Positions 21,018 to 23,506 of a stretch of DNA of 34,399 bases are shown piece after piece. Origin of the DNA: an uncultured Pseudomonadota bacterium (GTDB lineage Bacteria; Pseudomonadota; Gammaproteobacteria; Methylococcales; Methylomonadaceae); the NCBI GenBank assembly GCA_903877065.1, contig CAIRCR010000366.1:1-34399 (forward strand), written 5' to 3'. The notes below the pieces were generated by a model. The model did no database searches and was not told the DNA's origin. It saw only the letters and a program-made list of their open reading frames with translations. Each line of letters starts with the position of its first letter. Position 1 is the first letter of the stretch. The translations under genes and the position numbers were made by a program.

Positions 21018-21401
21018 ATGGCTAACATTTTAGTTATCGACGACGAAGAACAAATGCGCGATTTGCTCGACATGATGCTGACCGATGATAATCACAGCGT
21101 GAAAACAGCAAGCGATGGTGTGGAAGGATTATTGGCTTGTCATCATGAAAAATTCGATTTAATTATCACCGACATCAATATGCCGCCCAAAAACGGCATT
21201 GATTTTCTTATCGAGATACAAAAATTCAACAAAAAAATCCCCGTAATTGCCATTTCTGGTGCTGTTGGAAAATTCACAGACAGTGAATTTAATTTAGCTT
21301 CCGCTAAGATGTTGGGTGGCGTTTTAGGCACACTCAAAAAACCATTCAATGAAATTGATTTACGCAACGCTATTAACGCCATACTGGGTGAATCAAAATG
21401 A
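21018..21401 (+). CDS. Single-domain response regulator, paralog of 124..492
   Basis: MANILVIDDEEQMRDLLDMML...FDLIITDINMPPKNG...LKKPF; shares N-terminus and the FNLxSAxxLG segment with the first regulator. Confidence 0.93.
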   Translation: MANILVIDDEEQMRDLLDMMLTDDNHSVKTASDGVEGLLACHHEKFDLIITDINMPPKNGIDFLIEIQKFNKKIPVIAISGAVGKFTDSEFNLASAKMLGGVLGTLKKPFNEIDLRNAINAILGESK

Positions 21402-23506
21402 TTAAAACACTATCTTCTGAAAAATTGAGTGTTCCAATTGGCTATAGCGAAATATTTGCAGCAATTGATGAAGCCTGTGTTGTTTCACTGTCTGATATTG
21501 ATGGCGTTTTCCTTCAGGTTTCTAAAAATTTCTGCACGCTCACAGGTTATAGCGAAGAGGAATTGATTGGAAAAAACAACCGTTTGATGCGTTCAGGGCT
21601 ACATTCTAAAGAATACTATGCTGAATTTTGGCAATCTATTCTTAGCGGTAATGTTTCAGAGCATGACATTTGCAATCGAACTAAAAATGGCGATTTATTT
21701 TGGGTGCATAACACGATTGTGCCAATGCTCGAGTCAGAAACGAAAAAGATAAAAGCGTTTCTTTCGATTATGGTTGAGATTACTACACAGAAAAAAATAG
21801 CATCTGAAAAGGAAGAAATTTTTGGACAATTACTGCACGCGCAAAAAATGGAAAGTATGGGGCAATTAGCCAGTGGCATCGCGCATGATTTCAATAACAT
21901 TTTAACGCCCATTATCGGCTTCACGCGTGCCGCCAAAATATGTGTGGAAAAAAACGATATTTCTAAAGCGATGGATTGTTTAACGCGGGTTGAAAAATCA
22001 GCAAATCGAGCGGCTGATTTAGTCGATAAAATGCTCACTTTTTCGAGTGAAAAAACGGTAAAAGCGGGGGAGCCAATTAAGCCATCGATTGTTATCAATG
22101 AAGTGGTTGAAATTAGCAAAATGTTACGCGCCAGCATTTCATCACTGGTTACGCTTGAGGTGACAAATTCACTCGTTGAAGATTATCCGTTAATCCTTAT
22201 CGACAGTTCCGAATTACATCAAATTGTGACGAATTTAATTGTGAATGCGCGTGATGCCATTGATGATTATTGGACACTCAATTTAGATCACTGGTTACGC
22301 AATGCGGGTGAAATAAAAATCAATTTATCTTTGGAAAAAATGACCGAATCGGACACGATTTTTTGCTCGGCGTGTTCAGCGCGACTGAACGGCGACTACG
22401 TTAAAATTTCAATCAGCGACAGTGGAGTCGGCATTTCACCTGAAAAAATTTCGCGTATTTTTGACCCATTTTTTACGACAAAAGAAATTGGCAAAGGAAC
22501 GGGATTAGGTTTATCAGTCGTAAGCGGTATTCTTCACAATGTAGATGCTCATGTCATCGTTGAATCTGTCGTTAATCGAGGTACAACATTTTCTTTATTA
22601 TTCCCTGCCGTTTATAAAACAACTGAAGTAGCTGAATCAGTTGAAACTGCTGAAATAGTTGAAGCGGCTGAAATATTTAAAAAATCTGAAACATCGAAAT
22701 TAAAAGTTTTGGTCGTTGATGATGAAGAAGAAATTTGTGGTTTACTTAGTTATGAATTGACGGCGTTAGGTTATGACGTGACAACATTCACGTCGAGTTT
22801 TGAAGCGTTAAGTTTTTTTCATCAAGATACTGCTTATTTTGATGTTGTCATTACCGATTATGGAATGCCAAATATGTCGGGATTAGATTTAGCGATTAGC
22901 TTATTAGCACGGCGACCAAAAATTCCGATTTTGTTTTGCACTGGTTACAGCGACAAATTGAAAACGGCAGATGATTTGCCCAAAGGAAACACGTTTTTAT
23001 TCAAAAAACCAATTCATGTGCATATTTTGGATAAAACAATCAGAAAATTTTTTGCCGAAAGAATTGAAAATTCTGAAGATACACTTTTTCACTTAATTTA
23101 TGTGAGTGTTGCCGCGCATACCTTTTCAGATGACGATTTAAAAGTTTTGTTAAAAAAAGCGCGGACTAAAAATGAAAAATTAAACGTGACGGGAATGTTG
23201 CTTTATCGAGATGGGTTATTTTTACAAGTTTTGGAAGGCGAAGAAAAAGCACTTGATGAACTTTATGGCAACGTGATTAGTAAAGATGTAAGACATAAAA
23301 AAGTGTGGATGATTTATAAAAAACCCGTTGAAAAACGCAGTTTTCAAAATTGGACAATGGGATTTAACAAAATTGAGGGTAAACAAATAGAAAATCTCGA
23401 AGGTTTTACGGATTTTTTAGAATGTCCGACACTCGATTTTTTCAACAATTCGCCAAATAAAGCCGAAGAATTGTTGAATTGCTTTAAAGATGAAACGTTG
23501 TTTTGA
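21398..23506 (+). CDS. Hybrid sensor kinase PAS-HisKA-HATPase-REC-BLUF
   Basis: PAS (FCTLTGYSEEELIGKNNRLMRSGLH), H-box SGIAHDFNNIL, HATPase GTGLGLSV, REC (VVDDEEE..VITDYGMP..FKKP), BLUF (LIYVSVAAHTFSDDDL..ARTKNEKLNVTGMLLYRDGLFLQVLEGEE..RHKKVWMIYKKPVEKRSFQNWTMGF). Confidence 0.92.
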   Translation: MIKTLSSEKLSVPIGYSEIFAAIDEACVVSLSDIDGVFLQVSKNFCTLTGYSEEELIGKNNRLMRSGLHSKEYYAEFWQSILSGNVSEHDICNRTKNGDLFWVHNTIVPMLESETKKIKAFLSIMVEITTQKKIASEKEEIFGQLLHAQKMESMGQLASGIAHDFNNILTPIIGFTRAAKICVEKNDISKAMDCLTRVEKSANRAADLVDKMLTFSSEKTVKAGEPIKPSIVINEVVEISKMLRASISSLVTLEVTNSLVEDYPLILIDSSELHQIVTNLIVNARDAIDDYWTLNLDHWLRNAGEIKINLSLEKMTESDTIFCSACSARLNGDYVKISISDSGVGISPEKISRIFDPFFTTKEIGKGTGLGLSVVSGILHNVDAHVIVESVVNRGTTFSLLFPAVYKTTEVAESVETAEIVEAAEIFKKSETSKLKVLVVDDEEEICGLLSYELTALGYDVTTFTSSFEALSFFHQDTAYFDVVITDYGMPNMSGLDLAISLLARRPKIPILFCTGYSDKLKTADDLPKGNTFLFKKPIHVHILDKTIRKFFAERIENSEDTLFHLIYVSVAAHTFSDDDLKVLLKKARTKNEKLNVTGMLLYRDGLFLQVLEGEEKALDELYGNVISKDVRHKKVWMIYKKPVEKRSFQNWTMGFNKIEGKQIENLEGFTDFLECPTLDFFNNSPNKAEELLNCFKDETLF

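Follow-up and report, generated by a model that had tools for sequence, protein, structure and literature searches.

What does a BLUF photoreceptor do at the far end of a histidine kinase, behind the receiver? The locus that raises this question lies in a 34,399-nucleotide stretch of contig CAIRCR010000366.1 (hereafter the window). A soluble kinase, an intact receiver, a terminal BLUF domain and an adjoining regulator come together in it, and the genus supplies a natural control in a sister kinase that lacks BLUF. This is a compact setting in which to ask if phosphotransfer can be steered by light acting from the receiver's side.

Translation of the frame at 21398-23506 on the forward strand gives a soluble protein of 702 aa, and a Pfam search bears out the domain order read in the initial annotation, PAS-HisKA-HATPase-REC-BLUF, with all five domains scoring above their gathering thresholds. 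The features of the locus are these:

21018..21401, + strand: single-domain response regulator of 127 aa, a plain receiver (Response_reg, E 1.5e-22)
21398..23506, + strand: PAS-HisKA-HATPase-REC-BLUF hybrid kinase, 702 aa (open reading frame, Pfam)
21479..21784, + strand: PAS domain, residues 28-129 (PAS_9, E 5e-11)
21857..22048, + strand: HisKA, residues 154-217, with the phospho-acceptor His163 at codon 21884-21886 (Pfam, residue check)
22202..22609, + strand: HATPase_c, residues 269-404, catalytic motifs present (Pfam, residue check)
22706..23035, + strand: receiver (Response_reg), residues 437-546, with the canonical Asp441, Asp442, Asp487, Thr515 and Lys537 (Pfam, residue check)
23054..23083, + strand: linker of 10 residues (553-562) from the last helix of the receiver to the BLUF domain (no in-frame start codon; models)
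23084..23362, + strand: BLUF core, residues 563-655 (PF04940, E 1.6e-29; residue check; PDB matches)
23363..23503, + strand: C-terminal helical tail of the BLUF part, ending in FKDETLF, common to stand-alone short BLUFs and of low model confidence

The PF04940 match reaches 102 bits against a curated cut-off of 25. The BLUF tyrosine, asparagine and glutamine reported earlier are indeed present as Tyr568, Asn592 and Gln610, and Ser570, Trp652 and Met654 are kept as well; in order along the chain, the six pair in the alignment with Y8, S10, N32, Q50, W91 and M93 of TePixD. Such a domain match together with such a residue set is far beyond chance. In the kinase core, H163, D341 and the G-box are kept. 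With the HisKA histidine, the HATPase motifs and a C-terminal receiver carrying the DD/D/T/K set, the window protein is, as judged from its sequence, a hybrid histidine kinase. The ATPase domain also contains a CxxC motif (Cys323/Cys326, window 22364-22375), which is kept in all compared kinases that cover the region and perhaps has a redox or metal role.

Residues 418-702, modelled with AlphaFold (mean pLDDT 80), form a receiver and, after it, a BLUF fold. Foldseek matches the first half of this model to receiver domains in the PDB and the BLUF half to TePixD and AppA (the best matches), Slr1694 and OaPAC. When the whole protein is modelled, the final helix of the receiver (541-558) leads almost straight into the first BLUF strand (562); the placement of the domains relative to one another is unreliable in both models (pTM 0.57 and 0.42), and the BLUF tail has low confidence.

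The BLUF part looks like an entire protein in its own right. It aligns over its whole length, tail included, with unfused short BLUFs of the PixD type from the same family (L063, 4514-4948 in G212, 55% identity; L064, 49%; L065, 48%), and its terminal FKDETLF follows the motif FK[KHD]ETLF that ends the stand-alone proteins as FKKETLF or FKHETLF. In the BLUF tree it groups with these stand-alone short BLUFs.

The kinase part has another history. Its closest same-genus relative, L058 (168-1793 in G208:C138), is a PAS-HK-REC protein that is 62-64% identical over PAS-HK-REC. Like the window kinase it has an intact receiver and a single-domain regulator beside it (1797-2165), but it ends at the receiver (...IQRFFS-stop), at the place where the window protein continues through the 10-residue linker. 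The two are sisters in the kinase tree (support 100/100) inside an eight-row clade (100/98) whose other members all lack BLUF. The trees thus point to separate ancestries for the BLUF domain and the kinase. Because the 3' end of L058 lies 167 bases from the end of its contig, BLUF could conceivably have been lost in L058 rather than gained in the line leading to the window. As for the junction itself, no in-frame ATG, GTG or TTG was found in linker residues 553-562, which leaves no trace of a former separate start, and we rejected the idea that two genes had merged by loss of a stop codon. The GC contents of the BLUF and receiver parts are close, at 0.32 and 0.35. We put it at an even balance of probability that, in this lineage, an existing response regulator/PAS-HK-REC operon acquired an entire short BLUF protein behind its receiver, and that the product is a working blue-light-responsive hybrid kinase in which light acts by way of the receiver.

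The initial annotation had named the adjoining single-domain regulator as a natural partner and reported a 4-nt overlap (ATGA) between the two genes. The overlap, of the regulator's stop with the kinase start, is there in the sequence, and the partnership gains support from the relatives: the regulator is 52% identical to the one beside L058, and L058 and most of its eight-row clade adjoin a single-domain regulator of the same kind. The 21018..21401 regulator is therefore a likely phosphotransfer partner of the kinase, judged by sequence and gene order. Since the regulator also adjoins BLUF-less relatives, the pairing is older than the BLUF domain. Downstream of the kinase, ccmH and a thioredoxin-like gene lie on the other strand. 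No such kinase was found within about 1.5 kb of ccmH in 15 relatives with a ccmH match, one of which gave only a weak kinase match, and the location beside ccmH is not common to the relatives. Some BLUF-less relatives of the kinase (L060, 3596-4324; L061, 3358-5537; L059, 3026-4651) adjoin B12-binding-like and MCP-signal-domain genes, neighbours that hint at a chemotaxis- or motility-related role.

The genus contains a second set of proteins in which BLUF directly follows a receiver, as in the window. Four are HK-REC-BLUF proteins without PAS (L052, L053, L054 and L055), and another, L057, has a frameshift; there are also REC-BLUF proteins, of which L056 lies directly downstream of a receiver-less kinase. 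The arrangement is found in L052-L055, L056, L068, L090 and L106 of this genus and in G148 and G150 of genus g11. Where checked, the BLUF residues of this second lineage are intact, as they are in the window. Its kinase forms, however, lack the PAS domain and have a degenerate receiver, whereas the window protein has PAS and a canonical receiver. The second-lineage receivers are mostly degenerate, with alanine or serine for the threonine, Asn for Asp in several, and Arg in place of Lys in the kinase forms; despite this, the kinase residues and BLUF are intact. No single-domain regulator was found adjoining the HK-REC-BLUF kinases of this lineage.

Do the two sets descend from one fusion? A single clade of the window protein and the second lineage is rejected for the kinase (HK-REC-BLUF lineage, AU p = 1.6e-4) and for the receiver (AU p = 0.038). 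For BLUF, it is rejected with the 15 REC-fused rows (AU p = 1.3e-4) but narrowly not once two nested rows are included (p = 0.061). We accordingly set aside a single ancestral REC-BLUF fusion. Because the kinase, receiver and BLUF trees all place the second lineage apart, BLUF was probably joined behind a receiver twice, independently, in one genus. L097 (1-2265, G210:C44) is a BLUF-PAS-PAS-HisKA-HATPase kinase whose BLUF falls inside the REC-BLUF clade; about 160 aa, perhaps a decayed receiver, precede that BLUF. In L090 (5-1923, G208:C144), a gene for a REC-HD phosphodiesterase-type regulator is followed directly by a degenerate-REC-BLUF gene.

How unusual is the arrangement? BLUF occurs in 120 of 399 Pseudomonadota genomes, and a published survey counted 64% of BLUF proteins as short and 34% as EAL-linked (PMC4844311). 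The view that BLUF domains usually stand alone or N-terminal to an output domain nevertheless needs amending, because C-terminal BLUF is found in a recurrent PBP-PAS-GGDEF-EAL-BLUF family as well as in the separate HK-REC-BLUF lineage. Among the matches listed from the Pseudomonadota genomes, the four frames of at least 500 aa are either of this PBP-PAS-GGDEF-EAL-BLUF type or without another recognised domain. The PBP (Peripla_BP) proteins (L121, L187, L188, L191-L193) resemble the window protein in being multidomain signalling proteins that end in BLUF, but they are c-di-GMP enzymes without a receiver, whereas the window protein is a kinase. Since they recur in the order, we rejected the notion that a C-terminal BLUF is unusual in itself.

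The junction of receiver and BLUF is more restricted. In Methylococcales, spanning matches to a REC-BLUF profile were confined to this genus and two g11 genomes. The rest of the class sample had none, and neither did a second class (240 genomes) or a small class (48); a scan of viral contigs gave no match either. Across 84,980 species, spanning matches came only from MAGs of this methanotroph group, with patterns that were tuned to the genus and so give no proof of absence. The fusion with PAS and an intact receiver is known from one MAG, and no second genome carrying it was found. A 2019 review of photoreceptor histidine kinases notes that BLUF occurs in kinases, which are less well characterised than those with LOV, phytochrome or rhodopsin sensors (PMC6798134). 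Our search of the open-access literature turned up no description of a BLUF hybrid kinase with this layout. A functional parallel is offered by the LOV histidine kinases, Brucella LOV-HK and the Caulobacter LovK-LovR pair, in which a flavin-based blue-light sensor controls a kinase as we propose here (PMC4844311). LovK has a single-domain partner regulator, like the window kinase, but no attached receiver, and the sensor of these kinases is a LOV domain at the N-terminus, whereas that of the window protein is a C-terminal BLUF.

The initial annotation suggested that blue light acts on the receiver or on phosphotransfer output, which is plausible. Most likely, in our view, the window protein is a light-sensing hybrid kinase whose BLUF domain modulates the receiver, and hence the flow of phosphate to the neighbouring regulator. 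FAD binding and a photocycle are inferred here, as are the direction of the light effect and its sign. In this mechanism, His163 would autophosphorylate at a level set by PAS input, and the phosphate would pass to Asp487 of the protein's own receiver, to the overlapping single-domain regulator, or to both. Blue light absorbed by FAD in the BLUF domain would switch the hydrogen bonding of Tyr568 and Gln610 and so alter the BLUF sheet and cap. Transmitted along the short stretch that joins BLUF to the last receiver helix, this change would shift the receiver. Under light, the attached receiver would then take up or drain a different share of the phosphate, and the amount reaching the regulator would differ accordingly. 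Two points lead us to favour BLUF as an input on the receiver: this canonical receiver has the kinase on one side and BLUF on the other, and in the parallel lineage BLUF outlasted the decay of the receiver. Loss of receiver residues with retention of BLUF argues that BLUF is an input there and not an output gated by the receiver; for the window protein, that direction is favoured by analogy with a different lineage.

The alternative that survives best takes BLUF as an output or effector, with receiver phosphorylation and light jointly gating its binding to a partner protein. The position of BLUF at the C-terminus, behind an intact receiver, is what such a design would have, and the BLUF part amounts to a whole short-BLUF protein, tail included; short BLUFs signal by protein-protein contact, as in PixD-PixE and PapB-PapA. 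In the parallel lineage, however, BLUF is kept beside a degenerate phospho-acceptor side, so gating by phosphorylation is not the general reason for the pairing. Nor is there an obvious partner gene nearby, where ccmH and the thioredoxin-like gene lie downstream and the relatives have no such kinase beside ccmH. We regard an output role as unlikely, though worth keeping in view.

BLUF might instead act directly on the kinase core, in cis or from one subunit of the dimer to the other; autokinase or phosphatase activity would change, and the receiver would be only a spacer. The HK-REC-BLUF proteins of the genus, with their degenerate receivers and intact kinase residues and BLUF, would suit this arrangement. 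The receiver of the window protein, on the other hand, is canonical at 5/5 positions checked, which argues that it still carries phosphate, and the full-length model places the domains with too little certainty to reveal a contact between kinase and BLUF. Direct action on the core is, in our judgement, unlikely and slightly less probable than an output role.

We give little credence to the idea that BLUF is no light switch but senses redox state or flavin levels, or stabilises the protein as a non-photoactive addition. Flavin redox sensing has been discussed for BLUF and LOV proteins (PMC4844311), and the conserved CxxC of the kinase core would fit with it, but all photocycle residues are kept, among them Tyr, Gln, Asn, Trp and Met. 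That an assembly or sequencing error fused two genes, one for a kinase and one for a short BLUF, is hardly credible, for although the MAG is in 552 contigs and the fusion was seen once, the protein is one open frame on a 34-kb contig with a linker free of start codons, and its BLUF part is most similar to same-genus and same-family BLUFs and close in composition to the receiver part.

The modulation of the receiver by BLUF, our preferred reading, can be placed in a wider setting. The host genome is a 3.1-Mb MAG with 4.7% contamination, and the window BLUF is the sole BLUF gene found in it. The AMO/pmoA family is carried by this genome and most of its genus, and the host is therefore a methanotroph of the order Methylococcales; to judge by the sample codes, it and its relatives appear to be lake genomes. 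An inhibition of lake methane oxidation by light has been proposed (see PMC7474682), and PMC8163242 also treats light effects on the process, which makes light sensing in these bacteria ecologically interesting. That interest concerns light sensing alone, and we do not claim a link between the kinase and methane oxidation. More tentatively, and as an idea that we hold possible at less than even weight, BLUF on the C-terminal end of a receiver could be a repeatedly evolved functional module, through which blue light tunes the uptake or drain of phosphate from the effector side and links light to behaviour in lake methanotrophs.

Other BLUF architectures turned up alongside. Frames of about 300 aa with BLUF are frequent in the same family (several of L002-L031), and in the one scanned for domains, L002 (1441-2376), BLUF is followed by PsiE. 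A further set of proteins of about 1220 aa (L092, 772-3279 in G193:C42; L078, L079 and L093; and one in G208:C34) joins a pyridine-nucleotide oxidoreductase region and a cyclic-nucleotide-binding domain to BLUF and a cyclase domain of class III, a composition that suggests a possible cyclase under redox, cNMP and light control.
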